Assembly: GCF_032460525.1 (NCBI RefSeq)
Contig: NZ_CP135963.1
Location: 372,001-436,000, forward strand
Direction: 5' to 3'
Length of the DNA stretch: 64,000 bases
DNA from: Geodermatophilus sp. DSM 44513
GTDB lineage: Bacteria > Actinomycetota > Actinomycetes > Mycobacteriales > Geodermatophilaceae
Shown: in pieces, positions 11,989-28,390 of the stretch
Position numbering within the stretch: the stretch's first letter is position 1
How the letters are laid out: each line of letters starts with the position of its first letter
Translations under genes and position numbers: made by a program
The notes under the pieces: generated by a model
What the model saw: only the letters and a program-made list of their open reading frames with translations
Told to the model about the DNA's origin: nothing
The model's database searches: none

Positions 11989-12558
11989 ATGGCCGTCGTC
12001 CACCCCACCGAGGAGCGCACGCGGGCGCAGCAGGCCCGCGCCGAGCGGGACCGGCGCCTGCTGGAGGGGTGCCGGCGCGGCGACTCCCGGGCGTGGGCGG
12101 ACCTGCTCGCCGACTACGAGCGGCTGGTGTTCTCCATCCCGCTGCGCCACGGGCTCTCCCGGGAGGACGCCGCCGACGTCGTGCAGCTGACCTTCACCGA
12201 GCTGCTGCAGGGCCTCGACGCGCTGCGCGACGACGAGCGGCTGGTCGGCTGGCTGGCCACCGTCGCCCGCCGGCAGAGCTGGCGGCTGCTGGAGCGGCGG
12301 CGCCGGGAGACCGCGGTGGAGGAGCTCCCGGAGGTGGCCGAGCCCGACCCCGCGGAGACCTGGACCCGCGACGAGTGGCTCTACGACGGCCTGCTCTCCC
12401 TGGACGAGCGGTGCCGGGAGCTGATCACCGCGCTGTACCTGAGCACGGAGTCCCCAGCCTACGCCGACGTGGCCCGCCGGCTGGGCCGGCCCATCGGCAG
12501 CATCGGGCCCACCCGCGCCCGCTGCCTGCAGCGGCTGCGTGCCGCCCTGGGGGACTGA
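11989..12558 (+). CDS. ECF-type RNA polymerase sigma factor
   Basis: A 189-residue sigma-70-family protein with region 2 (about residues 30-105: RDRRLLEGCRRGDSRAW, DAADVVQLTFTELLQGLDAL, VGWLATVARRQSWRLLERR) and region 4 (about 135-187: LSLDERCRELITALYLSTES, RRLGRPIGSIGPTRARCLQR). Regions 1.1 and 3 are absent, which defines the ECF group. ATG 11989 is chosen because GAGGAG lies six bases upstream; earlier in-frame ATGs precede Thr/Pro-rich sequence of low coding quality. The gene heads the 12.0-28.4 kb block where four copies of GTATCA-N17-CACGT occur, and is the obvious candidate to read them. No full copy of the motif precedes the sigma gene itself. Confidence 0.92.
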   Translation: MAVVHPTEERTRAQQARAERDRRLLEGCRRGDSRAWADLLADYERLVFSIPLRHGLSREDAADVVQLTFTELLQGLDALRDDERLVGWLATVARRQSWRLLERRRRETAVEELPEVAEPDPAETWTRDEWLYDGLLSLDERCRELITALYLSTESPAYADVARRLGRPIGSIGPTRARCLQRLRAALGD

Positions 12559-12593: not shown

Positions 12594-12621
12594 GTATCAG
12601 GAGGGCGCGCAGGCCGCACGT
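12594..12621 (+). promoter_or_regulatory. ECF-type promoter P1 (GTATCA-N17-CACGT)
   Basis: The -35-like GTATCA is at 12594-12599 and the -10-like CACGT at 12617-12621, exactly 17 bases apart. It lies between the sigma gene stop (12558) and the GTG at 12660, so it would drive the anti-sigma-like, CHAT and subtilase genes. The same two boxes with the same spacing recur at 17554, 19810 and 27743. Confidence 0.75.
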
Positions 12622-12659
12622 ACCTGTCGACGGGTGGCGAGCGAGCGGGGAGGTGCCAG

Positions 12660-13256
12660 GTGGCGATGGGGTTCCGCGACGTCGTGGACTGGGTCGACGG
12701 CGGGCTGGACGACCAGCGGGCCGCGCGCGTCGCGGCCGCGGTGGCGGCCGACCCGGAGCTGCAGGCGGCGGCCGCCTGGTACCGCAGCTTCCGGGCGGCC
12801 TCGGCGCGGATGACCCTGGAGAGCCCCCCGCAGCAGGTGCACGACGCGCTGCTGCACCGCTTCGCCGCGCTGCACCCGCCGGCACCCGGCTTCCTGGAGC
12901 GCGTGCGCGCGGTGATCTCCTTCGACAGCGCCACCGCCCAGCTCGCCCTCGGGGTCCGCGCCGCCGACACCGGGGTCGGCCGGCACGTGGTGGTCGAGTC
13001 CGCGACCGTCGACGTCGCGCTGGACCTCTACCCGGAGGACCGGGACGTGCGCGTCGAGGGCCAGCTGCTGCCGGCCGACCCGGAGGCACCCGCCCGCGGC
13101 ACCGTGCGCCTGCTCCGCGACGGCGCCGAGCTGGCCGCCGCCGACGCCGACGACACCGGCCGGTTCGCGCTGCCCCCCGTGCCCGCCGGTGCCGCGCTGC
13201 TGGTCGCCGAGGTGGCCGGGACGGCGATCGAGGTCGACGTCTCCCTCGTGACGTGA
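12660..13256 (+). CDS. Anti-sigma-like protein lacking the zinc ligands, with C-terminal beta-sandwich
   Basis: A 198-residue soluble protein. Residues 4-48 (FRDVVDWVDGGLDDQRAARV, then ADPELQAAAAWYRSFR) read like the helical N-terminus of anti-sigma factors, whose usual form is a short helix, then a DPE repeat, but the Cys/His zinc ligands are missing. The C-terminal ~60 residues (GTVRLLRDGAELAAADADD, GRFALPPVPAG) resemble a carboxypeptidase-regulatory-like beta sandwich. No membrane helix is present. GTG 12660 follows GGGGAGG. It sits between the ECF sigma gene and the CHAT gene, a position typical of sigma regulators, so I infer that it binds the sigma factor; this is not shown by the sequence alone. 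Confidence 0.6.
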   Translation: MAMGFRDVVDWVDGGLDDQRAARVAAAVAADPELQAAAAWYRSFRAASARMTLESPPQQVHDALLHRFAALHPPAPGFLERVRAVISFDSATAQLALGVRAADTGVGRHVVVESATVDVALDLYPEDRDVRVEGQLLPADPEAPARGTVRLLRDGAELAAADADDTGRFALPPVPAGAALLVAEVAGTAIEVDVSLVT

Positions 13257-13283
13257 CCGCGCCGGACGGGGAGGTGACGGTGC

Positions 13284-16028: not shown

Positions 16029-16086
16029 CCCCCGGGCCGGACCCCCCGGCCCGTGACTGCTCCCCACACCCCTGGAGGTGACCCGC

Positions 16087-17502
16087 ATGACCCGCTCATC
16101 CCTTCCCCGCCGGCACGCGGTGCGGACGCTGGCCGTCCTCACCGGCTCCCTGGTCCTCGCGCTCGGCGGGGTGACGCCCGCCGCGGCGGAGACCGAGGAG
16201 GCCGAGACCGCGACCGTGGCCGAGGAACCCGAGGCCGAGGAGGAGGCCGACGAGGAGGAGTCCGAGGAGTCCGAGGAGGAGGACGAGGACGCCGGGGACG
16301 GGGGTGCCGGTGGGGGCACCCCCGACGACGGCATCACCGCCGACCCGTCGGAGGACCCGGTCGACGGCGTCGACCAGATCGTGGTCGCCGTCCAACCCGG
16401 GACCGACGTGGCCGCCCTGGCCGCCGAGTACGGCCTCACCGTCGTCGACCAGCTGGCCGGCTCGCCGGACACCCACCTGCTGCAGGCCCCGCCGGGCACC
16501 GACGTGACCGCCCTGGCCGCCGAGCTGGCCGCGGACCCGCGCACCCGCTTCGCCGAGCCCAACTTCAACCTGGGCGCCCCCGAGGCCAACCCCACCTACC
16601 GGTGGCGCGGCGGCGACGGGAGCCCGGTGCCCGCCGGCTCGGACCCGGCCGCCTGGACCGGCCAGCAGGCCCTCACCCAGGTCGGCGCCGCCGCGGCACA
16701 GGCGGCCAGCACCGGTGCCGGCGTCACCGTGGCGGTGCTGGACACCGGCGTCGCGGCCGGTCACCCGTCGCTGGCCGGGGACGTCGCCGCGTCGGGCCCC
16801 GACCTGGTCGACGGCGACACCACCCCCGACGACGTGGGCAACGGCGTCGACGACGACGGCGACGGGCGGGTGGACGAGGCCACCGGGCACGGCACCCACG
16901 TCGCCGGCATCGTCCTGGCCGTCGCCCCCGACGCGCAGGTGCTGCCGGTGCGGGTGCTCGACAGCGACGGCATCGGCACGGCCTTCGGCCTGGCCGAGGG
17001 CGTGCGCGCCGCGCTGGACGCCGGCGCCGACGTGCTCAACATGAGCCTGGGCACCGCGGCGGAGTCCCAGCTGCTGGCCGAGGTGCTCGAGGAGGCCGAC
17101 GAGGACGCCGTCGTCGTGGCCTCCGCGGGCAACAGCGGCACCCAGGCCCTGCAGTACCCGGCCGCCACCGGCGGGGTGGTGTCCGTCGCCTCCGTGGGCC
17201 CGCAGGACGCCCTGTCGGAGTTCAGCAACCGCGGGTGGGTCGACGTCGCCGCCCCCGGCGAGGACGTCGTCAGCACGTTCCCCGGCGGCGGCTTCGCGAC
17301 CTGGGCGGGCACGTCGATGGCGACTCCGTTCGTGGCCGGTCAGGCGGCGCTGCTGGTGCCGCTGCTCGGCGAGGACCCGGCCGGGGCGGTCCCCGGCCTG
17401 ATCACCTCCACCGCGGTCGCCGGTGACCCGCTGCTGGGTGCCGGCCGGGTGGACCTCGCGGCCAGCACCGCGGCGGCGGGCAGCGCCACCGGCTCGGACT
17501 GA
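16087..17502 (+). CDS. Secreted S8-family subtilisin-like serine protease with acidic linker
   Basis: A 471-residue exported protease. A signal peptide (about 1-34) ends TPAAA. It is followed by a very acidic stretch of about 40 residues made mostly of Glu, Asp and Ala, then an I9-like propeptide (about 90-165). The S8 domain has Asp219 in VAVLDTGVAAGHPS, His268 in GHGTHVAGI and Ser410 in GTSMATPFVAG, with oxyanion Asn in SAGNSG. GNGVDDDGDGRVDE just before the His looks like a calcium loop. No C-terminal anchor is present. ATG 16087 has GGAGG eight bases upstream; an in-frame GTG at 16078 is less well placed. It is last in the P1 operon and is followed by a strong hairpin. Confidence 0.93.
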   Translation: MTRSSLPRRHAVRTLAVLTGSLVLALGGVTPAAAETEEAETATVAEEPEAEEEADEEESEESEEEDEDAGDGGAGGGTPDDGITADPSEDPVDGVDQIVVAVQPGTDVAALAAEYGLTVVDQLAGSPDTHLLQAPPGTDVTALAAELAADPRTRFAEPNFNLGAPEANPTYRWRGGDGSPVPAGSDPAAWTGQQALTQVGAAAAQAASTGAGVTVAVLDTGVAAGHPSLAGDVAASGPDLVDGDTTPDDVGNGVDDDGDGRVDEATGHGTHVAGIVLAVAPDAQVLPVRVLDSDGIGTAFGLAEGVRAALDAGADVLNMSLGTAAESQLLAEVLEEADEDAVVVASAGNSGTQALQYPAATGGVVSVASVGPQDALSEFSNRGWVDVAAPGEDVVSTFPGGGFATWAGTSMATPFVAGQAALLVPLLGEDPAGAVPGLITSTAVAGDPLLGAGRVDLAASTAAAGSATGSD

Positions 17503-17515
17503 CCCCACGGCACCG

Positions 17516-17549
17516 GCGCCCCCCGGACCCGCCGCGGTCCGGGGGGCGC
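17516..17549 (+). terminator. Hairpin terminator after the subtilase gene
   Basis: A perfect 14-bp stem (arms 17516-17529 and 17536-17549) with a 6-base loop starts 13 bases after the subtilase stop. There is no U-tract, as is usual in high-GC actinobacteria. It separates the P1 operon from promoter P2, whose -35 box begins five bases later. Confidence 0.8.
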
Positions 17550-17553
17550 GGCT

Positions 17554-17581
17554 GTATCAGCGGCCTGACCCGGGCGCACGT
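17554..17581 (+). promoter_or_regulatory. ECF-type promoter P2 (GTATCA-N17-CACGT), probably leaderless
   Basis: GTATCA at 17554-17559 and CACGT at 17577-17581, spacer 17. Only seven bases separate the -10 box from ATG 17589, about where transcription should start, so the mRNA is predicted to be leaderless or nearly so. This makes ATG 17589 a better start than GTG 17580, which overlaps the -10 box. Confidence 0.75.
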
Positions 17582-17588
17582 GTGGGGC

Positions 17589-18803
17589 ATGAGCACCCCT
17601 CCCCACACCGAGCCCGCCCTCGGGGACGACCTGCCGCCGTCCCGGCCCGGGGCCACCGCACGGCCCGGCGGTGCCCACCCCGCCCCCCGCATCCCGGCGG
17701 TGGGCCGGGTGCTGCTGGCGGTGGCCGCGCTGGCCCTGCTGATCGGGGCGGTCGCCCTCTCCCCGCGCACCGACGTGGCCCGCAGCCCGGAGGCGGTGAT
17801 CGGCACCCAGGAGCTGGTGCGCATCACCGGCCCGAACGGCGAGTCGGTCGAGGCGATGGCCCGCATCGACACCGGCGCCAGCAGCTCCTCGATCGACGAC
17901 GACATCGCCGAGGACCTCGGCTACGACCTCGACGACGCCGAGACCGTCACCGTCGCGTCCTCCCTCGGTGAGGAGGAGCGCCCGGTCGTGGTCGGCGGGC
18001 TGCAGCTGGCCGGCGACGCCGCGGCGGCCCGCTTCACCGTCACCGACCGCTCCGAGCGCACCACCCCGGTGCTCATCGGCCGCGCCGACCTGCGCGGGCT
18101 GCAGGTCGCCGTCGGCCAGCGGATGCTGACCACCCCGGGCGACGACACCGCGCCGACCGCGCTGCGCGCGCTGCTGTCGGAGGGGCCGGCCCTCGGCCCG
18201 CAGTCCCTGCTGGCGGTGCTGCCGATGGCCGCCCTGGTCATCGTGCTGCTGCGGGTGGTGGTCGGGCTGTCCACCCTCGGCACCTTCTCGCCGGTGCTGC
18301 TGGCCTTCGGCTACACCCAGGCCGGGCTGACGACCGGCCTGCTGCTCACCGGCCTCATGCTGACCCTCGGCTTCGCCGCACAGCCGCTGCTGCGCCGCTT
18401 CCGGCTGCCCCGGGTGGCGCGGCTGTCGGTCCTGATCGGCCTGGTGGCGATGCTGCTGGTGGGCGTGCAGACCGCACTCGGGCTCACCGGGGTCGCCGAC
18501 TCCTGGGGTGCGGCGCTGCCCGTCGTGGTGACCGCGGCGATCATCGAGCGGCTCTGGGAGACCTGGGACCTCGACGGCCCCCGCCCCGCGCTGGTCGACT
18601 GCCTGAACACCCTGGTGGTGGCCGTCCTGGTCACCCTGCTCATTCTCGCGCCGGTCACCCGGCTGCTGACCGAGAGCGCCCCCCTGGCCTTCAGCGCCGC
18701 CTGCGTGGTCGCCGCCGGCCTGGCCGGCACCTACCGCGGGCTGCGCCTGGTGGAACTGATCCGCTTCTCCCCGCTGACCCGCCGCACGGAGGCCCTCCGA
18801 TGA
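17589..18803 (+). CDS. Retropepsin-like (RimB/Zn_protease) domain fused to a 7TM domain
   Basis: A 404-residue membrane protein. A helix at about residues 37-58 leads to an exported aspartic-protease-like domain (about 70-180). Its active-site motif is RIDTGASSSSI with Asp94, and VLIGRADLRGLQV is the partner strand of the retropepsin-like ATP-dependent zinc-protease family that accompanies RimK-type ligases. The C-terminal half (about 205-395) has seven helices, starting LLAVLPMAALVIVLLRVVVG and containing GTFSPVLLAFGYTQAG, like the 7TM module found in RimK-linked operons. That module is usually fused to an inactive transglutaminase; here it is fused to the retropepsin. It overlaps the ATP-grasp ligase gene by ATGA, so the two probably work together on peptide-like surface tags. 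Confidence 0.82.
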   Translation: MSTPPHTEPALGDDLPPSRPGATARPGGAHPAPRIPAVGRVLLAVAALALLIGAVALSPRTDVARSPEAVIGTQELVRITGPNGESVEAMARIDTGASSSSIDDDIAEDLGYDLDDAETVTVASSLGEEERPVVVGGLQLAGDAAAARFTVTDRSERTTPVLIGRADLRGLQVAVGQRMLTTPGDDTAPTALRALLSEGPALGPQSLLAVLPMAALVIVLLRVVVGLSTLGTFSPVLLAFGYTQAGLTTGLLLTGLMLTLGFAAQPLLRRFRLPRVARLSVLIGLVAMLLVGVQTALGLTGVADSWGAALPVVVTAAIIERLWETWDLDGPRPALVDCLNTLVVAVLVTLLILAPVTRLLTESAPLAFSAACVVAAGLAGTYRGLRLVELIRFSPLTRRTEALR

Positions 18804-19726
18804 CCACCACCCGCGTGACGCACCCCCTGACCAGGTACTGGCCGCGCCGCCCGGACCTCTCCCGGGTGCGCCGCCTGGACGGCGTGCTCGGCATCAACGC
18901 CCGCAACGAGCGCATCGCCCGCGACAACCCCACCCGGGCCATCAAGCTGGTCGACGACAAGCACGCCACCAAGACCGCACTGGCCGCCGCCGGCGCGCCG
19001 ACCGCCCCGACGCTGGCGTTCGTGGAGTCCCGGCGCGACCTGGCCGCGGTGGACTGGGCGGCGCTGGGCGGCTCCTGGGCCCTCAAGCCCAACCAGGGCC
19101 TCGGCGGCTCGGGCATCGTCCTCGCCACGGCCCCCGACCCCGACCTGCCGGCCGGTGAGGGCTGGCTGTCGGCGTCCGGCCGGCGGATCAGCCGGGCCGC
19201 GGTCCTCGACCACGCCCGGTTCGTGCTGGACGGGGAGTTCTCCGGCCGGCCGCGGGACGCCGTCCTGGTCGAGCCGCTCATCCGGGCGCACCCCGACATG
19301 GCGGCGCTCTCCCACCGCGGCCTGCCCGACGTCCGGGTGCTGTGCCTGTCCGACGAGCCGGTGATGGCGATGGTGCGGCTGCCCACCTCGGCCAGCGGCG
19401 GACGCGCCAACCTGCACCAGGGGGCGATCGGTGCCGCCGTCGAGCTCGGCACCGGCGTCATCACCGGGGCGTGGGTGGGGCGGCGTCCGCTGGACCGGCA
19501 CCCGGACACCGGCGTCGACCTCGTGGGCGCCGTCGTCCCCTGCTGGGACGGCGTCCTGGACGCCGCCACCCGGTGCGGCCCGGCGACCGGGCTGCACTAC
19601 GTCGGCGCGGACGTGGTCGTCGACCGGGACGCCGGCCCACTGGTCCTGGAGGTGAACGCCCGCCCGGGCCTGCAGATCCAGAACGTCAACGGCCGGGGTC
19701 TGGCCGGCCTGCTGCCGGCCGCCTGA
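18800..19726 (+). CDS. RimK-related ATP-grasp amidoligase (alpha-L-glutamate ligase-like)
   Basis: A 308-residue ATP-grasp enzyme expected to form peptide bonds between an amino acid and a carboxylate acceptor. Visible features: LGINARNERIARDNPTRAIK (residues 30-49), diagnostic of the RimK-related E-ligase subfamily; ATP-binding WALKPNQGLGGSGIVLA; VLVEPLIRAHP; SASGGRANLHQGAIGAAV; and the metal-binding end VLEVNARPGLQIQNVN. Known relatives are encoded with retropepsin-like and 7TM proteins, exactly as here, and are proposed to make or add short peptides. The ATG overlaps the upstream stop (ATGA). A strong terminator follows 16 bases after the stop, so promoter P2 governs a two-gene unit. Confidence 0.9.
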   Translation: MTTTRVTHPLTRYWPRRPDLSRVRRLDGVLGINARNERIARDNPTRAIKLVDDKHATKTALAAAGAPTAPTLAFVESRRDLAAVDWAALGGSWALKPNQGLGGSGIVLATAPDPDLPAGEGWLSASGRRISRAAVLDHARFVLDGEFSGRPRDAVLVEPLIRAHPDMAALSHRGLPDVRVLCLSDEPVMAMVRLPTSASGGRANLHQGAIGAAVELGTGVITGAWVGRRPLDRHPDTGVDLVGAVVPCWDGVLDAATRCGPATGLHYVGADVVVDRDAGPLVLEVNARPGLQIQNVNGRGLAGLLPAA

Positions 19727-19741
19727 CCCCAGCTCCCCCGG

Positions 19742-19778
19742 CGCACCGCCCGTGGCCCCCGTGGCCACGGGCGGTGCG
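19742..19778 (+). terminator. Hairpin terminator after the ATP-grasp gene
   Basis: A perfect 16-bp stem (19742-19757 with 19763-19778) around a 5-base loop, 16 bases past the stop at 19726. It ends the P2 unit 32 bases before the -35 box of P3. Confidence 0.85.
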
Positions 19779-19809
19779 TCGTCTCTCCGGGAGACGTCCC
19801 GGACCGGCG

Positions 19810-19837
19810 GTATCAGGACGGCACGCCGGCACCACGT
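19810..19837 (+). promoter_or_regulatory. ECF-type promoter P3 (GTATCA-N17-CACGT)
   Basis: GTATCA at 19810-19815 and CACGT at 19833-19837, spacer 17. It precedes the leader reading frame at 19910 and the six-gene glycosyltransferase/ABC/kinase operon. The bases around both boxes (GTATCAGGA and CACGTGTAGG) match P1 and P2 beyond the core. Confidence 0.75.
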
Positions 19838-19909
19838 GTAGGTCAGCGGGTGTCCACCCGCCGTTCACGTCCCGGCCACCCCCGGCCCACCGTCCCCAGG
19901 AGGCCCCCC

Positions 19910-19969
19910 GTGCAGCGACCCGCACGCCTCGCGCCCGTCCCCTCCGCGACCCGCGGCGGTACCCGGTGA
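19910..19969 (+). CDS. 19-codon leader reading frame coupled to the glycosyltransferase start
   Basis: A GTG preceded by a perfect AGGAGG (six-base spacing) opens a frame VQRPARLAPVPSATRGGTR that ends in TGA at 19967-19969. The stop overlaps the GTG of the next gene (19966) as GTGA. The downstream GTG has no Shine-Dalgarno site of its own, so ribosomes probably reach it through this leader. Alternatively it is the true N-terminus of the glycosyltransferase separated by a frameshift. The peptide has no recognisable function; it is Arg/Pro-rich. Confidence 0.55.
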   Translation: MQRPARLAPVPSATRGGTR

Positions 19970-21258
19970 CCGCCGTCCTGCCGGCCGCCCCGGGGCGGGA
20001 GCGGCCCACCACCCCGCTGACGCTGGTGCCCCCGCCGGCCGGTCCGGACGCCGGCCCCGCGCGGCGGGTGGCCTTCTACTCCCACGACACCCAGGGCCTG
20101 GGGCACACCCGGCGCAACATCGTGCTGGCCGCGGCGCTGGTCGCCGCCCGGCCGGACACCGACGTGCTGCTGCTCACCGGCAACCCCGAGGCCGCCGTCC
20201 TGCCGCTGCCTCCGCGCACCGACGTGCTCACCCTGCCCACCGTCGGCAAGACGCCCACCGGCAGCTACGCGCCGCGGGTGCTCGGCACCCCGCTGGAGGT
20301 GGTGCTCGACCTGCGGGCCCGCATCCTGGAGGCGGCCCTGGGCTCCTTCGCCCCGGACCTGCTGGTCGTCGACAAGGTGCCCGGCGGCGTGCACGGCGAG
20401 CTGCTCCCGGCGCTGCGGACGCTGCGCGCCCTGGGCGGCACCCGGGTCGTGCTGGGCCTGCGCGAGGTGCTCGACCGGCCCGAGGTCGCCGTCCGGGAGT
20501 GGCGGGACGCCGGCACCACCGAGGTCCTCGCCGAGCACTACGACGAGGTCTGGGTCTACGGCGACCCGGCCGTCTACGACCCGGTCGCCGAGTACGGCCT
20601 GCCCCCGGAGGTCGCCGCGCTCGTCCGGTACACCGGGTACCTCGGCCACGCCCGCACCGACGGCGTCCGGCCCCGCACCCGCCCCGGGCGCCGGTCCCGC
20701 CCGCCGGCCGGCCCGTACGTGCTGTGCACCGTCGGCGGCGGCCAGGACGGGCAGGCCCTCGCCGAGGCGTTCGCCGCCGCCCGGCTGCCCGAGGGACACC
20801 GCGGTGTGCTGCTGACCGGGCCGTTCATGGCACCGGCGGCCCGCCGCGCGGTCGCCGCGGCCGCCGCCGGCAACGACCGGCTGCGGATCGTGGACTTCGT
20901 CCCGGACGCCGACGCCTTCGTCGCGGGGGCGGCTGCGGTGGTGTCCATGGCCGGCTACAACAGCGTCTGCGAGCTGCTCGCCGCCCGCGCCCGCACGCTG
21001 CTGGTCCCGCGGGTGCGCCCCCGGGAGGAGCAGCTGGTCCGCGCCGAGCGGCTGGCCGGGCGCGGGCTGCTGGACTGCCTGCACCCCGACCGGCTCAGCC
21101 CGGCGTCCCTGACCGACTGGATGGCCACCGCGGTCAGCACCCCGGCACCCCCGGCCGAGCCGGTCGACCTCGACGGCCTGCGGCGGGTCCCGCGGCTGGC
21201 CGACGCGCTGCTCGCCGCCCCCGCGGCCGCCCTCGGGGGAGCCCGCCGTGTCGCCTGA
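19966..21258 (+). CDS. MurG-like (GT-B) glycosyltransferase
   Basis: A 430-residue protein with a nucleotide-sugar glycosyltransferase fold like family 28/MurG. After a ~35-residue Pro-rich leader it starts RRVAFYSHDTQGLGHTRRN, where the HDTQGLGH loop matches the Gly-rich acceptor loop of MurG-like enzymes. The C-terminal half has YVLCTVGGGQDGQALAEAF and VSMAGYNSVCELLAARARTL, the donor-binding region with the conserved Gly-Tyr-Asn-Ser. The GTG start overlaps a short leader frame and has no own ribosome binding site. It is the first of three glycosyltransferases in a tightly overlapping operon; donor and acceptor are unknown. Confidence 0.85.
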   Translation: MTAVLPAAPGRERPTTPLTLVPPPAGPDAGPARRVAFYSHDTQGLGHTRRNIVLAAALVAARPDTDVLLLTGNPEAAVLPLPPRTDVLTLPTVGKTPTGSYAPRVLGTPLEVVLDLRARILEAALGSFAPDLLVVDKVPGGVHGELLPALRTLRALGGTRVVLGLREVLDRPEVAVREWRDAGTTEVLAEHYDEVWVYGDPAVYDPVAEYGLPPEVAALVRYTGYLGHARTDGVRPRTRPGRRSRPPAGPYVLCTVGGGQDGQALAEAFAAARLPEGHRGVLLTGPFMAPAARRAVAAAAAGNDRLRIVDFVPDADAFVAGAAAVVSMAGYNSVCELLAARARTLLVPRVRPREEQLVRAERLAGRGLLDCLHPDRLSPASLTDWMATAVSTPAPPAEPVDLDGLRRVPRLADALLAAPAAALGGARRVA

Positions 21259-22486
21259 GACGGCGCCGCGGGTGGGTTACGTACTCAAGGTCCACCCCCG
21301 GTTCTCGGAGACCTTCGTGCTCACCGAGCTGCTCGCCCACCAGGTCCGCGGCCTGCACGTGCACGTGTTCTCCCTGCGCGCCCCCTGCGAGGGCCGCTTC
21401 CACGAGGCGCTGGCCCGGCTGCGCACCCCGGTCACCTACCTGACCAGCTCCTGGTCGCGCACCGAGGAGTTCTGGGACGCGCTGCGCGCGGCCCGCGACC
21501 GGCTGCCGGGCCTGGCCGCGCACGCCGGCGAGCTGCTGGACGTCGACCACCGCGACGCCGCGCAGGCCGTCGAGCTGGCCCTGGCCGTGCGCGCCTCCGG
21601 GATCACCCACCTGCACGCGCACTTCGCCTCGGTCGCCACGACGGTGGCCCGGCTGGCCGCGCGACTGGCCGGGGTGACCTACTCGTTCACCGCGCACGCC
21701 AAGGACGTCTTCCACGAGGAGGTGGTGGACGCCGAGCTGCGCGCCAAGCTGGCCGACGCCGCCGACGTCGTCACCGTGAGCGACTTCAACGTCGCGCACC
21801 TGCGCCGCCGGTTCGGCCCGGCCGCGGCCCGCGTGCGGCGGGTCTACAACGGCCTGGACCTCCCCGCCTTCCCCTGGACCCCGCCCACCGACCGGCCGCC
21901 GGTGGTCGCCGCGGTCGGCCGGCTGGTGGAGAAGAAGGGCTTCGCCGACCTGCTGCACGCCGTCGCCCGGCTCCAGGACACCGGCCGGGACCTCTCCGTC
22001 GTCCTGGTCGGCACCGGGCAGCTGGCCGGGGAGCTGGCCGCGCTGGTGCGCCGGCTGGGGCTGGAGGGCGCGGTCACGATGCCAGGGGCGCTGACGCAGG
22101 ACGAGGTGCGGCGGGTGGTGGGGGGCGCCGCGGTGCTGGCCGCCCCCTGCGTCGTCGGCGCCGACGGCAACCGGGACGGGCTGCCCACCGTCGTCCTGGA
22201 GGCGATGGCGCTGGGCACGCCGGTCGTGGCCACCCCGGTCACCGGCATCCCCGAGGTGGTCGAGCACGGCCGCACCGGGCTGCTGGTGCCCGAGCGCGAC
22301 CCCGCGGCCCTGGCCGGCGCGCTGGCCCGGCTGCTGGACGACGCCGCGCTGCGCACCCGGCTGGCCACCGCCGCGCGGGCCCGCGTGGAGACCGACTTCG
22401 ACGCCGCGGTGCAGGCCGCCCGGGTGGCCGAGGGCTTCGCCCCGGCGACCCGGCCCCGCCCGGCGGTGCTGGAGGTGGCGGGCTGA
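21248..22486 (+). CDS. GT4-family glycosyltransferase
   Basis: A 412-residue GT-B enzyme. The N-terminal domain begins GYVLKVHPRFSETFVLTELL (residues 9-28), typical of the colanic/exopolysaccharide subgroup of GT4. HLHAHFASVATTVARLAARL and FTAHAKDVF follow. The C-terminal donor domain has VGRLVEKKGFADLLHAVARL and DGLPTVVLEAMALGTPVVAT, which contains the conserved E-x7-E pair. GTG 21248 overlaps the previous gene by 11 bases. Its stop overlaps the next ATG (TGATG). The sugar it transfers cannot be told. Confidence 0.9.
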   Translation: MSPETAPRVGYVLKVHPRFSETFVLTELLAHQVRGLHVHVFSLRAPCEGRFHEALARLRTPVTYLTSSWSRTEEFWDALRAARDRLPGLAAHAGELLDVDHRDAAQAVELALAVRASGITHLHAHFASVATTVARLAARLAGVTYSFTAHAKDVFHEEVVDAELRAKLADAADVVTVSDFNVAHLRRRFGPAAARVRRVYNGLDLPAFPWTPPTDRPPVVAAVGRLVEKKGFADLLHAVARLQDTGRDLSVVLVGTGQLAGELAALVRRLGLEGAVTMPGALTQDEVRRVVGGAAVLAAPCVVGADGNRDGLPTVVLEAMALGTPVVATPVTGIPEVVEHGRTGLLVPERDPAALAGALARLLDDAALRTRLATAARARVETDFDAAVQAARVAEGFAPATRPRPAVLEVAG

Positions 22487-23679
22487 TGCGCGTCGCGGTG
22501 GTCTGCACCGACCCGGGCATCCCGGTGTTCGGGAGCAAGGGCGCCTCGGTGCACCTGCAGGCGGTGCTGCGCGAGCTGGTCGCCGACGGCCACGAGGTGC
22601 ACGTGGTCAGCCCGCGGCGGGACGGCGTCCCGCTGCCCGGCGTGCACCTGCACCGGCTGCCGGCGGTCACCGGCCGGGGCGGTGAGCGGGAGCGGTCCGC
22701 CCGGGCCAGCGACGCCGCGGTGGCCGCGGTGCTCGACCGGGTGCGCCCGGAGCTGGTCTACGAGCGGTACTCGCTGTGGGGGCGCACCGGCACGGCCTGG
22801 GCGCGGGCCGCGGGGGTGCCCGCCCTGCTGGAGGTCAACGCGCCGCTGCCCGAGGAGCAGCGGCTGCACCGCTCGCTCACCGACCCCGCCGCCGCCGACG
22901 CGGTCGCCGCGGCGGCGCTGTCCGCGGCGAGCGCGGTGGTCTGCGTGAGCGACGCGGTCGCCGACTGGGCGCGCGCGGTGTCCGCCCGGCCCGACCGGGT
23001 GCACGTCGAGCCCAACGGCGTGGACGTCGACCGCGTGCGGCCGGCCGGCCGCCCGGTGACCCCGGCGGCCGGCACCTCCTTCACCGTCGGCTTCGTCGGG
23101 TCGCTCAAGCCCTGGCACGGCGTGGAGACCCTCGTCGACGCGGTCGCGGCCCTGGCGGCCACCGACCCCGGCTGGCGACTGCTGCTGGTCGGCGACGGGC
23201 CGATGGCCGGGCCGCTGCTGGACCGCGCCGCCGCGCTCGGCGTGTCGTCGGCGGTGGAGGCGACCGGGGCGCTGCCGCCGGCGGAGGTGCCCGCCCAGCT
23301 GCACCGGATGGACGTCGCCGCCGCGCCCTACCCGCCCGCGGAACCCTGCTACTTCTCCCCGCTCAAGGTCTTCGAGTACCTGGCCGCCGGGCTGCCGGTG
23401 GTGGCCAGCCGGGTCGGTCAGCTGCCCGCGCTGCTGGCCCCGGACCGGCCCGGCGGCGAGCCGCTGGGCGTGCTGGTCCCGCCCGGGGACGTGCCGGCAC
23501 TGGCCGGGGCGCTGGCCGCGCTGCGCGCCGACGTCGCGCGACGGGAGCGGCTGGGCCGCGCCGGGCGCCGGGCCGCCGAGCAGCGGCACACCTGGCGCGG
23601 CGTCGTGCGGCGGTCACTGGCACACGCGCTGGGCGCCGCGCCGGACCGCCGGCTGCAACCGGCCGGGGGACCGCGGTGA
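22486..23679 (+). CDS. GT4-family glycosyltransferase
   Basis: A 397-residue GT-B enzyme starting MRVAVVCTDPGIPVFGSKGA, with the Gly-rich loop GSKGASVHLQAVLREL of the GT4 N-terminal domain. YERYSLWG, VCVSDAVADWA and VEPNGVDVDRVRP mark the middle. The donor domain has VGFVGSLKPWHGVETLVDAV and PLKVFEYLAAGLPVVAS, with the E-x7-E core reading partly degenerate (KVFEYLAAG). ATG 22486 overlaps the previous stop. Together with its two neighbours it could build a short oligosaccharide on a lipid exported by the ABC transporter next in the operon. Confidence 0.9.
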   Translation: MRVAVVCTDPGIPVFGSKGASVHLQAVLRELVADGHEVHVVSPRRDGVPLPGVHLHRLPAVTGRGGERERSARASDAAVAAVLDRVRPELVYERYSLWGRTGTAWARAAGVPALLEVNAPLPEEQRLHRSLTDPAAADAVAAAALSAASAVVCVSDAVADWARAVSARPDRVHVEPNGVDVDRVRPAGRPVTPAAGTSFTVGFVGSLKPWHGVETLVDAVAALAATDPGWRLLLVGDGPMAGPLLDRAAALGVSSAVEATGALPPAEVPAQLHRMDVAAAPYPPAEPCYFSPLKVFEYLAAGLPVVASRVGQLPALLAPDRPGGEPLGVLVPPGDVPALAGALAALRADVARRERLGRAGRRAAEQRHTWRGVVRRSLAHALGAAPDRRLQPAGGPR

Positions 23680-25487
23680 GCGCGCCGCTGCCGGAGCGCT
23701 CCCGCCGCCCCGGGGCGCGGGACGCCGTCCGCGGGCTGCGCCGCACGCTGCGCCGCTTCGCCCCCCACCTGCGCAGCCAGCGCCGGCTGCTGCTGCTCGG
23801 CCTGCTCGCCCTCTTCCTCGAGGTGGCGATGCGGCTGCTGGAGCCGTGGCCGCTGGCCTGGGTGCTCGACTCGCTGGTGGCGGCCGCGGGCGGAGACGTC
23901 GACCGGGCGTGGACCGGGGACGTCGGCACCGTGCTGCTGCTCGCCTCGGCCGCCCTCGTCGCCGCCGTGGCGCTGCGCGCGCTGGCCGCCTACGCGATGA
24001 CCGTCTGCTTCTCCCTCGCCGGCAACCGGGTGCTCACCCGGGTGCGCGCCGAGCTGTACGCGCACCTGACCCGGCTGCCCATGACCTTCCACGACGGCAG
24101 CCGCACCGGTGACCTGGTCACCCGGGTGACCGGCGACGTCGGCCGGCTGCAGGAGGCCACGGTCACCGCCGCCCTGCCGCTGTTCGGCAACCTGGTCACC
24201 CTGCTCGGCATGCTGGTGGTGGTCGCCGTCCTCAACGCCGAGCTGGCCCTCGTCGTGCTGCTGGTCTTCCCGCTGTCCGCCCTCCTGGGCGTCCGGCTGA
24301 CCCGCCGCATCCACGGCGTCTCGCGCCGCCAGCGCGCCTCGGAGGGTGCGCTGGCCTCGCTGGCCACGGAGTCCCTCGGCGCGATGGCCGTGGTGCAGAG
24401 CTACTCGCTGGAGGAGCGCGTGCAGCGGCGCTTCGGCGGCAGCAACGAGACCAGCCTGCGCGAGGGCGTCCGCGCGCGGCGGCTGGCGGCCGGTCTGGAG
24501 CGCAGCACCGACGTCCTCATCGGCCTGGCCACCGGGGTCGTCCTCTACGTGGGCGCCCGCCAGGTGGTGGCCGGCGACCTCACGCCCGGCGAGCTGACCG
24601 TGTTCCTGACCTACCTCAGGAGCGCGTTCCGGCCGCTGCGCGACATCGCCAAGTACGCCGGGCGGATCTCCCGCGCGGCCGCCTCCGGGGAGCGGATCGT
24701 CGACGTCCTGGAGGTGGAACCGGAGCTGCGCGACGCCCCCGGCGCGCGGCCGGCCCCCCGGCTGCGCGGCGAGGTGGAGTTCGACGACGTGCACCTGTCC
24801 TACGTGCCGGGGCACCCGGTGCTGCGCGGCCTGTCGCTGCGGGTGCCGGCCGGCCGGCGGGTCGCCGTGGTCGGCCCGTCCGGGTCGGGCAAGTCCACCC
24901 TGGTCTCGCTGCTGTGCCGGCTGCGCGACCCGGACTCCGGGACGGTGCGCCTCGACGGGCACCCGGTGGGCGAGCTGACCGTGGCCTCGGTGCGCGCCCA
25001 GGTCGCGGTGGTGCTGCAGGAGAGCACGCTGTTCGCCACCTCGATCCGGGACAACATCGCCCTCGGCGTCGACGGTCCGGTCACCGACGACGAGGTCGAG
25101 GCCGCCGCCCGCACAGCCGGCGCGCACGAGTTCGTCACCCGGCTGCCCGACGGCTACGACACCGTCGTCGGGGAGCGGGGCTCGACCCTGTCCGGCGGCC
25201 AGCGGCAGCGCATCGCCATCGCCCGGGCGGCCATCCGGCGGGCGCCGATCGTCGTGCTCGACGAGGCGATGACCGGCCTGGACCCGGAGACCGAGGGCGA
25301 GGTGGCCGCCGCCCTGGCCCGGCTCACCGCGGGCCGCACCACGTTCGTCGTCACCCACGACCTGGCCGCCGCCCGCGACGCCGACCAGGTGGTCTGGCTG
25401 GCCGACGGGCGGGTGCAGCGCGCCGGACACCCCGACGAGGTGCTCCCCTCCCCGCGGGAGGGGGTGGCCGCCGGTGCGCACCGCTGA
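23676..25487 (+). CDS. ABC exporter half-transporter (type IV, MsbA-like)
   Basis: A 603-residue permease-ATPase fusion. Six membrane helices lie within residues ~35-330, followed by an ABC domain with Walker A GPSGSGKST (about residue 400), Q-loop VAVVLQEST, signature LSGGQRQRIAIARA, Walker B IVVLDEAMTGLD and H-loop VVTHDL. It should homodimerise and flip a lipid-linked or amphipathic molecule outward. The GTG start overlaps the previous stop (GTGA). Its place after three glycosyltransferases suggests that the glycosylated product is its cargo. It is an exporter by architecture; no substrate-binding protein is nearby. Confidence 0.92.
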   Translation: MSAPLPERSRRPGARDAVRGLRRTLRRFAPHLRSQRRLLLLGLLALFLEVAMRLLEPWPLAWVLDSLVAAAGGDVDRAWTGDVGTVLLLASAALVAAVALRALAAYAMTVCFSLAGNRVLTRVRAELYAHLTRLPMTFHDGSRTGDLVTRVTGDVGRLQEATVTAALPLFGNLVTLLGMLVVVAVLNAELALVVLLVFPLSALLGVRLTRRIHGVSRRQRASEGALASLATESLGAMAVVQSYSLEERVQRRFGGSNETSLREGVRARRLAAGLERSTDVLIGLATGVVLYVGARQVVAGDLTPGELTVFLTYLRSAFRPLRDIAKYAGRISRAAASGERIVDVLEVEPELRDAPGARPAPRLRGEVEFDDVHLSYVPGHPVLRGLSLRVPAGRRVAVVGPSGSGKSTLVSLLCRLRDPDSGTVRLDGHPVGELTVASVRAQVAVVLQESTLFATSIRDNIALGVDGPVTDDEVEAAARTAGAHEFVTRLPDGYDTVVGERGSTLSGGQRQRIAIARAAIRRAPIVVLDEAMTGLDPETEGEVAAALARLTAGRTTFVVTHDLAAARDADQVVWLADGRVQRAGHPDEVLPSPREGVAAGAHR

Positions 25488-26700
25488 CCGCGACCTCGCC
25501 GCGCGCGACCCCGCGCTGCCCGCCCTGCCGGTGCTGCTCGACGACGCCCTGCTGGGCGAGTGGCTGGCCGGCCACGGCCTGGGCCGCGCCCGCCGGCGCT
25601 ACCTGCGCTACAAGCCGGGCACCAGCTGCCTGCTGCGGCTGGACCTGGAGGTCGGGGACCCGGAGCGCGGGGGGACGACGGTGCCCGCCGTGCTCGCCAC
25701 CCGCGCCGCCGACGGCGCCGGCAAGCTCGCCCGCACCCGGCAGGAGGCGCCGCCGGGGTCGGTCCTGGCCGCCGACGACGACGCCCGGTTGTTGCTCACC
25801 ACCCCCGCCGCCGACCGCGTGCTGCCCGCCGTCGCCGCGCTGTCCGGCGACCGGCCGGGGGCCGCACTCGCCGGGCTGCTCCCGGGCGAGGACCTCGGCG
25901 CGGCCACCGTGCGGGTGCTGCGCTACAAGCCGGCCCGCCGCTGGGTGGCCCTGCTCGGCCGGCCGGACGCCGACCCGCTGCTGCTGCGCGCGCACGCCCC
26001 CGCGGTCGCCGCGGCCGCGGCGGCCCGGCTGCGGGCGTTCGGCACCGCCCGGGTGCGCACGCCCGCGCTGGTGGCCGAGGACCCGGTGCTCGGCCTGGTG
26101 GTCACCGAGTGGCTGCCCGGCCGGACGCTGGCCGACCTGCCGCCGGCGGACCACCCGGCGGCGCTGCGCCGCACCGGCGGGGCGCTGGCCACGCTGCACC
26201 AGCACGCGGCGCCGGGCCTGCCGCGGCGCGGACCGCACGAGACCGGCTCGGCCGTCCGGGCCGCCGCCGGGCTGGTCGCCCACCTGCTGCCGCACGAGGC
26301 CGAGCGCGCCGCCGCGCTGGCCCGGGCCGCCACCGACCGGTTGCGCCCGGAGGTGCCCGGGCGGGTGTGCCACGGCGACTTCTCCGCCGACCAGGTGGTG
26401 CTGGGGCCGCACGGTGTGGCCCTGGTGGACCTGGACGAGGTGGGCTGCGACGACCCCGCCGTCGACCTCGCCGGGTTCCTCGCCGCCGCGACCGCCGAGC
26501 GCCGGCTGGGCCCCGCGGACGCCTGGTCCTTCCTCGACGGCTACCGCACCCTGCGTCCGCTGCCCGACCCCCGCCGGCTGGCCGCGGCCACGGCGGCCGC
26601 GCTGCTGCGCCGGGCCGCCGAGCCCTTCCGGCTGGCCGAGCCGGACTGGGCCGCCCGGGTCGTCGCGGTGCTGGACGCGGCGGAGCGGGAGCTCCGGTGA
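25474..26700 (+). CDS. APH-like phosphotransferase (kinase fold) A
   Basis: A 408-residue protein with an aminoglycoside-phosphotransferase/choline-kinase-like fold in its C-terminal half. The catalytic loop reads CHGDFSADQVVLG, with Gln where most family members have the metal-binding Asn, and VALVDLDEVGCDDPAVDLA supplies the DxD metal site. The N-terminal ~180 residues contain RYLRYKPGTSCLLRLDLE and RVLRYKPARRWVALL, a duplicated RYKP motif likely to belong to the ATP-binding lobe. GTG 25474 overlaps the ABC gene by 14 bases. In this setting, phosphorylation of a sugar or polyol in glycan assembly is more likely than antibiotic resistance, but this is inference. Confidence 0.82.
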   Translation: MRTADRDLAARDPALPALPVLLDDALLGEWLAGHGLGRARRRYLRYKPGTSCLLRLDLEVGDPERGGTTVPAVLATRAADGAGKLARTRQEAPPGSVLAADDDARLLLTTPAADRVLPAVAALSGDRPGAALAGLLPGEDLGAATVRVLRYKPARRWVALLGRPDADPLLLRAHAPAVAAAAAARLRAFGTARVRTPALVAEDPVLGLVVTEWLPGRTLADLPPADHPAALRRTGGALATLHQHAAPGLPRRGPHETGSAVRAAAGLVAHLLPHEAERAAALARAATDRLRPEVPGRVCHGDFSADQVVLGPHGVALVDLDEVGCDDPAVDLAGFLAAATAERRLGPADAWSFLDGYRTLRPLPDPRRLAAATAAALLRRAAEPFRLAEPDWAARVVAVLDAAERELR

Positions 26701-27737
26701 CCGGCGCGGACACCCGGTCGGCCGCCGCCCTGGCCGCCGTCGAGGACGACGTCGCCGCGGCCGGCGGCCGGCTGCTCGTGGCCTGGCCGCGCGGCACCGA
26801 CCACCTGCTGGTCGAGGTCGGCACCGACGCCGGCGCGGTGGCCGGGCAGTGGTGGGCCGACCGCGGCCGGGCCCGCGCGGTCGGGGCGGGCACGCCGGGC
26901 AGCCGTCGGCACGGCCGGCTGCTGCTGCAGCCCGGTGGCGCCGACCGGCGGCTGCCGGGCCTGCGGCAGCTGCTCACCGCACCGGGCGCCACGCTGGTCG
27001 CGCACCGGCCCGAGCGGCGGGCCGTCCTCCGCTGCGGGGACGGCAGCTACGTCAAGGTCGTGCGGCCGGACCGGCTGCCCGCGGTGCTCGCGGCCGCCCG
27101 GGCGGCCGCGCGGCTCCCCGTCCGGACCGCGCCGCTGCTGTCCGCCGATCCGCCGGGCGGCCTGCTGCGCACGGCCGCGCTGCCCGGCCGGCCGCTGCAC
27201 GACCTGCTCGGCACCGGCGCCGCGGTGGGCGCCTGCCGGGAGCTGGGGGCCGCGCTGGCCGCGGTGCACGCCGCACCGCCCCCCGCCGGCCTCCCGGTGC
27301 ACGACGGCGCCGCCGAGGCCGCGGTGCTGCGGCGCTGGACCGGGCTGGCCCGCACCTGGACCGGGGCCGGCGGTGGGGACGAGCTGGCCGGCGTCCTCGC
27401 GGAGCTGACCGGCGGACCGGCCGGGCCGCTCGTGGCCGTGCACCGGGACCTGCACGACCGGCAGGCGCTCGTGGCCGCCGACGGGTCGCTGGGCCTGCTG
27501 GACTTCGACCTGCTCGCACTCGGGGAGCCGGCGCTGGACCTGGCCAACCTGCTGGCCCACCTGGAGCTGCGCCGCCGCCAGGGCCTGCTGGCCGACGCGG
27601 GGCCGCTGCGCGCCGCCGTCCTGGACGGCTACCGCCCCGACCGCCGGGTGCTCGACCGGCTGGCCGTGCACGAGGCGGCCACCCGGCTGCGGCTGGCCGC
27701 GGTCTACGCCTTCCGACCGGGCCGGCCGGTCAGCTGA
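26697..27737 (+). CDS. APH-like phosphotransferase (kinase fold) B
   Basis: A 346-residue relative of the preceding kinase. It has a nucleotide-lobe element YVKVVRPDRLPAVLAAARAA, a catalytic loop AVHRDLHDRQALVAADG, again with Gln in place of the usual Asn, and the metal motif LGLLDFDLLALGEPALDLAN. The GTG start overlaps the upstream stop (GTGA). It is the last gene of the P3 operon, and the -35 box of P4 begins six bases after its stop. Two adjacent, diverged kinases with the same substitution suggest two phosphorylation steps in one pathway, or a heteromeric enzyme. The substrate is unknown. Confidence 0.8.
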   Translation: MTGADTRSAAALAAVEDDVAAAGGRLLVAWPRGTDHLLVEVGTDAGAVAGQWWADRGRARAVGAGTPGSRRHGRLLLQPGGADRRLPGLRQLLTAPGATLVAHRPERRAVLRCGDGSYVKVVRPDRLPAVLAAARAAARLPVRTAPLLSADPPGGLLRTAALPGRPLHDLLGTGAAVGACRELGAALAAVHAAPPPAGLPVHDGAAEAAVLRRWTGLARTWTGAGGGDELAGVLAELTGGPAGPLVAVHRDLHDRQALVAADGSLGLLDFDLLALGEPALDLANLLAHLELRRRQGLLADAGPLRAAVLDGYRPDRRVLDRLAVHEAATRLRLAAVYAFRPGRPVS

Positions 27738-27742
27738 GTCCG

Positions 27743-27770
27743 GTATCACCCGCCCGCTCGGCCTGCACGT
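27743..27770 (+). promoter_or_regulatory. ECF-type promoter P4 (GTATCA-N17-CACGT)
   Basis: GTATCA at 27743-27748 and CACGT at 27766-27770, spacer 17. It directly follows the stop of kinase B (27737) and leads to a secreted protein at 27821 through a ~45-base leader with GGAGG. Confidence 0.75.
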
Positions 27771-27820: not shown

Positions 27821-28390
27821 ATGCGGAAGTCCCTGTTCGCGCTCGCCAGCACCGGCGCGTTCGTGCTCACCGGCCTGGCGGCGAGCCCGGCCCTGGCCGC
27901 CGACGACGTGCGGTGCACCGGCACGATCGGCGCCATCGAGGTCAAGAGCGTCCTGGTGCCCGAGGACGCCAGCTGCACCCTGGCGGGCACCCGGGTCCTG
28001 GGTGACGTGCGGGTGCTGGAGGACGCCGACCTGGACGCCCAGGGCATCGACGTGCGCGCCAGCGTGCAGGCCCAGCGCGCATCGTCGGTCGACATCGCCG
28101 GCTCGGCGGTCCGCAGCCTCGTGCAGTTCCAGGAGGGTGGCTCCTTCACGCTGACCGACTCCACGGTCGGCGCGGACGTGCAGGTGACCAAGAGCGACGG
28201 CGCGGTGTCGATCACCGGCAACACGATCGGCAACAGCCTGGACGCCTCGGAGAACACCGGCGGGGTCGAGGTCAGCGCGAACACCATCCGGGTGAACCTC
28301 ACCGGCCAGGACAACGACCCGGCGCCCGTCGGCGGCGGCAACACCGTCGGCGGCGACGACGAGAAGCAGTTCGAGGGCTTCGCGGTCTGA
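27821..28390 (+). CDS. Secreted beta-helix-like repeat protein
   Basis: A 189-residue exported protein. The signal peptide (1-27) ends ALAADD. After a short region with two Cys (RCTGTIG and ASCTLAG, possibly a disulfide), about five coils of 19-20 residues follow (about 68-165). Each has the pattern x-V-x-V, then a turn, then V-x-I-x-x-S/N-x-V/I, e.g. SSVDIAGSAVRS, GSFTLTDSTVGA, GAVSITGNTIGN and GGVEVSANTIRV. This suggests a small right-handed beta-helix. A Gly/Asn/Asp-rich end follows. ATG 27821 has GGAGG seven bases upstream. Alone under promoter P4, it may be a structural or ligand-binding product of the regulon; I do not recognise a named family. Confidence 0.8.
   Translation: MRKSLFALASTGAFVLTGLAASPALAADDVRCTGTIGAIEVKSVLVPEDASCTLAGTRVLGDVRVLEDADLDAQGIDVRASVQAQRASSVDIAGSAVRSLVQFQEGGSFTLTDSTVGADVQVTKSDGAVSITGNTIGNSLDASENTGGVEVSANTIRVNLTGQDNDPAPVGGGNTVGGDDEKQFEGFAV

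Follow-up and report, generated by a model that had tools for sequence, protein, structure and literature searches.

ECF54, an actinobacterial group of extracytoplasmic function (ECF) sigma factors, is encoded near CHAT, subtilase and carboxypeptidase genes, and its control by proteolysis without an anti-sigma factor has been proposed, as far as PMC8999054 describes it. In CASP (or Craspase), the type III-E CRISPR system of Cas7-11, the TPR-CHAT protease Csx29, Csx30 and CASP-sigma, the relevant parts of PMC10028731 and PMC9729208 report that Csx29 cuts Csx30, the inhibitor of CASP-sigma, and that the locus carries CASP-sigma motifs; CASP thus sets a precedent in which the substrate of a CHAT protease is a sigma inhibitor. 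The present analysis concerns a stretch of 64,000 nucleotides (hereafter the window) from the actinobacterium Geodermatophilus sp. DSM 44513 (contig NZ_CP135963.1, positions 372,001 to 436,000), in which four copies of a two-part element, GTATCA-N17-CACGT, designated P1 to P4, follow the gene of an ECF-type sigma factor. On the sequence evidence these sites are very probably promoters specific to this sigma factor, and the genes behind them a real regulon.

As around ECF54 (PMC8999054), the sigma gene stands beside genes for a CHAT protein, a subtilase (S8 family) and a carboxypeptidase-regulatory-like protein. The CHAT and S8 proteins score above the Pfam cut-offs and recur in relatives, and the third, a small protein of 198 residues, matches CarboxypepD_reg weakly (E 0.094); the locus differs from ECF54 in that this protein has a predicted anti-sigma-like N-terminal domain. 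A term search of the ECF review PMC8103513 gave no mention of ECF54 in the text covered, and no ECF54 promoter motif or regulon was found in the open-licence literature, a scope outside which the 2021 ECF classification falls. As in CASP, a TPR-CHAT protease with a His/Cys dyad, an ECF sigma factor and a probable sigma inhibitor are co-encoded, together with sigma motifs within the locus; here, however, no sequence match to Csx30 was seen when a profile of the small protein was compared with solved structures, the targets are surface genes, and an S8 protease is added. No Cas effector was found among the block proteins scanned with Pfam and NCBIfam, a scan that included neither a search for CRISPR arrays nor the rest of the genome. 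An ECF sigma factor is likewise encoded together with a TPR protein and a caspase-type domain in the system described in part in PMC8195603, but that system is built on EACC2 and TRADD-N modules, which were not seen here. The small protein recalls anti-sigma factors of the RseA/MucA/RslA/RskA/ChrR type in its predicted helical N-terminal domain, and differs from them in being soluble, in carrying a prealbumin-like C-terminal domain and in adjoining a CHAT protease.

By pattern search and gene calling, the four exact sites of the window were all located where the original prediction had placed them, on the plus strand, in intergenic DNA and just upstream of a gene that each site faces (Table 1). 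P1 precedes the gene of the small protein, P2 that of a retropepsin-seven-transmembrane (7TM) protein, P3 glycosyltransferase genes and P4 that of an exported protein. The motif was absent from all of 100 dinucleotide shuffles of the window. Exact matches occur only at the spacing of 17 (four sites; none at 12 to 16 or 18 to 22), one mismatch adds a single site each at spacings 13 and 16, and no extra site appears at spacing 17 even with two mismatches. The hexamer GTATCA is present on the two strands of the window in four copies, each inside the full motif, as had been noticed by eye; by itself it is not overrepresented, since 2.14 copies are expected and 15 of 100 shuffled windows hold at least four. 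Scatter at chance frequency over the genome, which would have spoken against a regulon, was not observed: the genome (one contig, 4,628,844 bases) carries four exact sites on the forward strand and none on the reverse, all within a block of 15 kb, and the reversed-pattern control has none.

The spacer sequences differ among the four sites. The likely start codon follows CACGT after 38 bases at P1, 50 at P4 (ATG), 72 or 128 at P3 and 7 at P2 (ATG), where the alternative GTG start at 17580 would overlap the site. In Modestobacter sp. VKM Ac-2985 (locus L108, from 15518 onward) an ATG likewise stands 7 bases past CACGT, as in the window (17554-17600), a distance so short that a leaderless P2 transcript is probable in both genomes. 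The proposal that the -10 element contains CGT stood in part. CACGT is present at all four sites, but CGT in this position was seen only in the own genome and in Modestobacter, and the core conserved in more distant relatives is GCA, 15 or 16 bases past the hexamer. P1, P2 and P4 fit the frame GTATCA-N16-GCA, P3 having CCA in place of GCA, and the -10 element would be better read as GCA(C/T).

A search of the own genome with one mismatch allowed yielded six further sites, against one for the reversed control. Of these, five fall within called genes; the single intergenic site, GTATCA...CACGG at 1,212,600, is 0.8 Mb away from the block and about 60 bases from the gene that it faces, which encodes a paralogue (40% identical) of the exported P4 protein. 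At E up to 0.01 these two are the only P4-family genes of the genome. The chance that one of six sites lands within 100 bases of the P4 paralogue in the correct orientation was estimated, post hoc, as about 6 in 100,000, and this fifth site is a probable regulon member outside the block. A match to GTATCA-N16-GCA at 4019408-4019432 of the same contig (plus strand, locus L197) is also intergenic and has no clear target gene. One match was obtained there with the reversed control.

Conservation within the family was examined in 112 genomes of Geodermatophilaceae. The exact motif was found in 11 of them, with four sites in the own genome, three in Modestobacter and one in each of nine others. Since the reversed control gave seven matches in six genomes, the single sites are regarded as background. 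Modestobacter, which carries a 76%-identical sigma orthologue, is thus besides the own genome the sole one with more than one site; with one mismatch it gave four extra sites against seven for the control. The three Modestobacter sites stand before the orthologous P1, P2 and P4 genes, of which the P4 gene is displaced and inverted together with its site. Between the two genera the core of these three sites is identical at 33 of 33 positions, whereas the spacers agree at 10, 5 and 8 of 17 (23/51), the 60 bases upstream at 27, 16 and 20, and the 60 bases downstream at 22, 29 and 39 positions. The glycosyltransferase (GT28-like) behind P3 had no match in Modestobacter in a search run without a positive control, which agrees with Modestobacter having no fourth site. 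Among 397 genomes from the order, no other sigma factor above 46% identity was seen among the matches listed (E up to 1e-28).

More distant relatives were collected by a profile scan of genome contigs with three aligned sigma factors, which gave 48 loci; later analyses covered 71. Rubrobacter, Chloroflexi and others repeat the gene order sigma factor, protein of about 200 residues, CHAT and S8, although some loci depart from this order or lack part of the set. In 17 of the 20 loci L109-L128, GTATTT or GTACTT is present between the sigma stop codon and the next gene, followed after 16 bases by (G/A)CA in 13 loci and after 15 bases by GCA in four. No such element lies beside the sigma genes of L120 and L126, and in Pseudonocardia nigra (L128), in which the arrangement is divergent, GTATTT-N16-GCA precedes the small-protein gene. 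The same 20 loci, from which the motif definitions had themselves been drawn, hold 27 copies of GTATTT-N15/16-GCA, whereas block shuffles hold 0.95; the pattern is defined by the 15 copies beside the sigma gene, and 12 are independent of it. Five independent sites (L113, L116, L118, L125, L127) precede a homologue of the GT28-like protein, which was detected in six relative loci, the sixth being L128. Another lies before the S8 gene of L112 and a further two before P4-domain genes of L117; no shared target is clear for the other four (L110, L111, L112, L121). The element thus precedes some of the same families as in the window, an outcome that the original prediction had named as support. Genome-wide searches of seven genomes with GTATTTT-N14/15-GCAT gave 34 matches against 12 for the reversed control; 12 of the 34 fall in the collected sigma loci, and two of the seven genomes have none. 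In one Rubrobacteraceae genome all four matches lie in its two sigma loci (three in L112, one in L121). This genome carries two cassettes of sigma factor, small protein, CHAT and S8, with the same promoter type.

In the 71 loci the 300 bases downstream of the sigma gene and the upstream side of divergent genes were checked. The element stands beside the sigma gene in 19 of them, as GTA(T/C)TT in 18 (Rubrobacter, Chloroflexi, Pseudonocardia and others) and as GTATCA in Modestobacter. A tree was built of 70 sigma factors, leaving out L141 (cut by a contig end) and L050 (on the same contig as L126); the distant or partial loci L142-L155 were set aside, as were 120 further listed sigma proteins. 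All 20 sigma factors with the motif, the window's included, fall within one set of 22 members (support 99/97), against 0 of 48 outside. The expected co-occurrence of motif and sigma gene across genomes was therefore borne out. The two members without the motif are Aeromicrobium sp. Leaf350 (L120) and a Geodermatophilaceae metagenome-assembled genome (L126). In the recognition helix of these two, GPL and GPA replace GPT. The residues PTR of this helix were also considered as proof of specificity and dropped, as 36 loci have PTR without the motif at that place. Because of the rarity of the sites, their conservation in Modestobacter, the fifth site, the cross-phylum element and its restriction to one sigma clade, which like the shared target families are properties of the sequences themselves, P1 to P4 are read here as sigma-specific promoters.

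The protein proposed as reader scored 57.1 bits with TIGR02937 (cut-off 42.9) and 36.1 bits with PF04542 (cut-off 24), as expected of an ECF sigma factor. Region 4 remained below the cut-off (PF04545, 13.8 bits against 24.1); it can be aligned with 21 relatives along the helix GSIGPTRARC and variants of that helix. The sigma gene heads the block, and its designation as the natural reader is supported; it is not visibly self-transcribed, because no site at spacing 17 was found upstream of it even with two mismatches. Just upstream lies a response-regulator gene at 11002-11703 (Response_reg and Trans_reg_C in the scanned frame), which with the preceding gene forms a stretch at 9482-11703. Neither gene has a match in the Modestobacter locus, which keeps the sites.

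The small protein behind P1 is a probable soluble anti-sigma factor. Of 29 members of its family, 13 match NF052375 ('anti-sigma factor'; best E 6.9e-7), 11 match PRK13920 and 20 match CarboxypepD_reg, all at E up to 0.1; the window protein itself matches only PRK13920 among the anti-sigma profiles (E 0.01). A fold search with the full-length model gave only the C-terminal beta-sandwich among the matches listed, and for this reason the N-terminal domain was modelled and searched alone. The first 17 of its 24 Foldseek matches came from sigma/anti-sigma complexes, with weak E-values. A profile of the full alignment matched solved structures in the C-terminal part, several of them prealbumin- or transthyretin-like, and a profile of the N-terminal domain gave nothing relevant. 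Profile and predicted fold together lend weak to moderate support to an anti-sigma domain. The neighbouring TPR-CHAT protein gave seven matches at E up to 0.01 among sequences of solved structures, all named CHAT domain protein, Csx29 or TPR-CHAT and all presumably Craspase entries; with the NCBIfam Csx29 model it scored 58.8 bits, below the cut-off of 300. The putative dyad H786/C826 is kept in all 25 loci in which the alignment covers it, the remaining 3 of 28 matching loci being not covered.

The best explanation of these observations, with a probability of roughly 0.8, is a set of ECF sigma promoters with an anti-sigma/CHAT switch that drives a surface regulon. RNA polymerase with this sigma factor would read the four sites. 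P1 would drive the sigma factor's own anti-sigma factor together with the TPR-CHAT protease and the secreted subtilase, P2 the membrane retropepsin/7TM protein and an ATP-grasp ligase, P3 an operon of glycan assembly and export, P4 the exported protein and the fifth copy its paralogue. At rest the soluble anti-sigma factor would hold the sigma factor through its N-terminal domain. A signal sensed through the TPR part may then lead CHAT to cut this inhibitor, in the manner of Craspase and most likely within its flexible linker or its C-terminal domain, a step for which the odds appear about even. The freed sigma factor would have the cell surface remade, and P1 would restock the anti-sigma factor and the protease in a feedback loop. 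A wider proposal, put forward tentatively and with somewhat less confidence than the cut, is that this represents a CRISPR-independent switch found across phyla, in which a TPR-CHAT protease (caspase/separase-like) cuts a soluble anti-sigma factor, thereby releasing an ECF sigma factor that turns on a conserved surface programme. If this is true, type III-E CRISPR would have captured its sigma/anti-sigma/CHAT module from a housekeeping switch of this kind. The locus also offers a CRISPR-free counterpart for asking where the sigma/inhibitor/protease module of Craspase originated, and what bacterial CHAT proteases do without phage RNA. The CHAT-linked sigma clade also gains a promoter code and a list of targets, neither of which was found in the open-licence literature, and a neighbourhood association becomes a testable circuit with its reader, brake, protease and outputs named.

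The alternative that survives best, though unlikely, is that CHAT and S8 degrade the sigma factor itself and keep the system off, with no anti-sigma factor and some other role for the small protein; such sigma degradation is the proposal reported for ECF54 from its carboxypeptidase, subtilase and CHAT neighbours (within the scope of PMC8999054). On the side of this alternative, none of eight small proteins beside more distant sigma factors, nor that of the Pseudonocardia clade member, matches an anti-sigma profile. As to the anti-sigma domain, the window protein reaches no family cut-off and its fold scores are weak. Anti-sigma matches nevertheless recur among the homologues within the clade, and the modelled N-terminal domain resembles anti-sigma domains. 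The start of the S8 protease, moreover, looks by eye like a signal peptide, so that this protease should not meet the sigma factor.

Far less probable is a second possibility, that the sites are operators of a DNA-binding regulator. Motif conservation alone does not distinguish an operator from a promoter, and the response-regulator gene just upstream of the sigma gene would supply a candidate. This gene and its neighbour, however, are unmatched in the Modestobacter locus although the sites are retained there, and the two-part -35/-10 geometry, the strict spacing, the orientation of each site towards its gene and the tracking of the sigma clade argue for promoters. Reading of the sites by another sigma factor of the same genome is given just as little weight. 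Sigma factors of the wider family may use GTATCA-N15/16-GCTC (see below), and cross-reading could occur in genomes with several paralogues; the own genome, however, has no close paralogue, the next matches standing at E 4.7e-5 (31% identity) and 6.5e-5 (25%), and the motif follows the sigma gene across genomes. Chance or a recent repeat duplication, suggested by the closeness of the four sites, can practically be dismissed, because no shuffle contains the motif, the spacers differ, the core is kept across genera while spacers and flanks vary, and a like element is found across phyla.

The block was annotated by gene calling and by profile scans with Pfam and NCBIfam, and its features are listed in Table 1.

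Table 1. Features of the sigma block in the window, and the fifth site elsewhere in the genome.
Feature	Position	Strand	Remarks
ECF-type sigma factor, 189 residues, proposed reader of the four promoters	11989..12558	+	TIGR02937, PF04542
P1, predicted promoter GTATCA-N17-CACGT	12594..12621	+	between 12558 (gene end) and 12660 (start); same place in Modestobacter; in relatives GTA(T/C)TT-N15/16-(G/A)CA
Probable soluble anti-sigma factor, 198 residues	12660..13256	+	helical N-domain (about 1-71), flexible linker, C-terminal prealbumin/CarboxypepD_reg-like beta-sandwich
TPR-CHAT caspase-like protease, 914 residues	13284..16028	+	PF12770, 194.7 bits; putative dyad H786/C826
S8 protease (subtilase, mycosin-like)	16120..17502 (alternative start 16078)	+	PF00082, 149.5 bits; TIGR03921, 151.4 bits, below cut-off 278.75
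P2, predicted promoter	17554..17581	+	between 17502 and 17589; exact motif; kept in Modestobacter
Retropepsin-like domain fused to 7TM domain (RloA+RloB-like)	17589..18803 (open frame from 17580)	+	Pfam
ATP-grasp ligase (RloC/RimK-like)	18800..19726	+	PF14397, 170 bits; TIGR02291, 223.3 bits, below cut-off 314.2
P3, predicted promoter	19810..19837	+	between 19726 and 19910 or 19966; exact motif; GTATTT-N16-GCA before GT28 homologue in L113, L116, L118, L125, L127
Possible leader open reading frame, 19 residues	19910..19969	+	in P3 leader; stop overlaps GT28 start (GTGA)
GT28-like glycosyltransferase	19966..21258	+	PF04101, 24.9 bits (cut-off 22); homologues in 6 relative loci
GT4 glycosyltransferase	21248..22486	+	PF13692/PF00534
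GT4 glycosyltransferase	22486..23679	+	PF13692/PF13439
MsbA-type ABC exporter	23676..25487	+	PF00664/PF00005 (longer frame from 22776 scanned); TIGR02204, 401 bits, below cut-off
APH-fold kinase-like protein	25474..26700	+	PF01636, 69.6 bits
APH-fold kinase-like protein	26697..27737	+	PF01636, 52.2 bits (longer frame 25560-27734 scanned)
P4, predicted promoter	27743..27770	+	between 27737 and 27821; exact motif; in Modestobacter elsewhere in locus, inverted together with gene
Exported repeat protein, no recognised family	27821..28390	+	signal-peptide-like start by eye; one genome paralogue, motif-preceded
Fifth site, GTATCA...CACGG	G000:C1:1212600-1212627 (L103)	-	one mismatch; about 60 bases from gene faced; 0.8 Mb from block

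The predicted targets suggest glycan export and envelope proteolysis, together with exported proteins of the surface, and a cell-surface stress programme would be the likeliest role. The P3 operon looks like one for glycan assembly and export, and its short leader frame could possibly serve translational coupling or encode a leader peptide. No family was found above the cut-off for the exported P4 protein in the Pfam and NCBIfam scans. With PADLOC no match was obtained for the sigma factor, the small protein or the CHAT protein; the S8 protease matched a generic subtilase model only (3.7e-23), besides a weak match to IetS (0.0026), and the P2 protein gave weak matches to PDC-M52B (5.6e-5 and 0.0028). 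The S8 protease carries a long acidic stretch rich in Glu and Asp (16120-16350) soon after its signal-peptide-like start. In L117 (Caldilineaceae) the S8 protease (14581-16512) has an N-terminal P4-like domain and is followed by two more P4-like genes; the two exported products are tied together by this fusion.

The P2 operon resembles the Rlo operon (RloA-RloB-RloC), which in Pseudomonas has been linked to hypo-osmotic stress, biofilm and antibiotic tolerance, and whose RloB hits are 96% from Proteobacteria, as given in the portion of PMC12239564 concerned. It likewise combines a retropepsin, a 7TM domain of the inactive-transglutaminase type and an ATP-grasp ligase. The retropepsin-7TM protein scored 100.8 bits with PF14402, 31.6 with PF05618 and 27.0 with PF13650, and these, as well as PF14397 in the ligase, are above the Pfam cut-offs. 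The differences are that the RloA- and RloB-like parts are fused here in one protein, that the host is an actinobacterium and that the operon stands behind this promoter type. Since the equivalog cut-offs of NCBIfam were not reached (RloB model, 76 bits against 900; RloA3, 33 against 210), the operon is described as Rlo-like and not filed as a member.

In the 48 loci of the wider sigma family (L066-L101, L129-L140), GTATCA-N15/16-GCTC was found at 18 sites in 15 loci, against 1.2 expected, a maximum of four in 50 shuffles and none in the reversed control; three of the 18 sites are inside called genes. When GC(T/A)C was allowed, spacing 15 gave 12 sites and spacing 16 six, with at most three at any other spacing from 10 to 22. 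In the dyad scan that preceded this choice, GTATC-N16-GCTC was present in 10 loci, whereas GC-rich pairs in shuffled sequence reached a maximum of 12-14; the pattern is therefore partly post hoc and is treated as a lead. A looser form, GTAT(C/T)-N15/17-GC(T/A)(C/T), was rejected, its 46 sites being no better than the shuffle mean of 42.6. GTATCA may be a -35 element shared by the wider family of CHAT-associated sigma factors. In several loci (L068, L072, L091 and L093) it is the sigma gene itself that a GTATCA-N15/16-GCTC site precedes.

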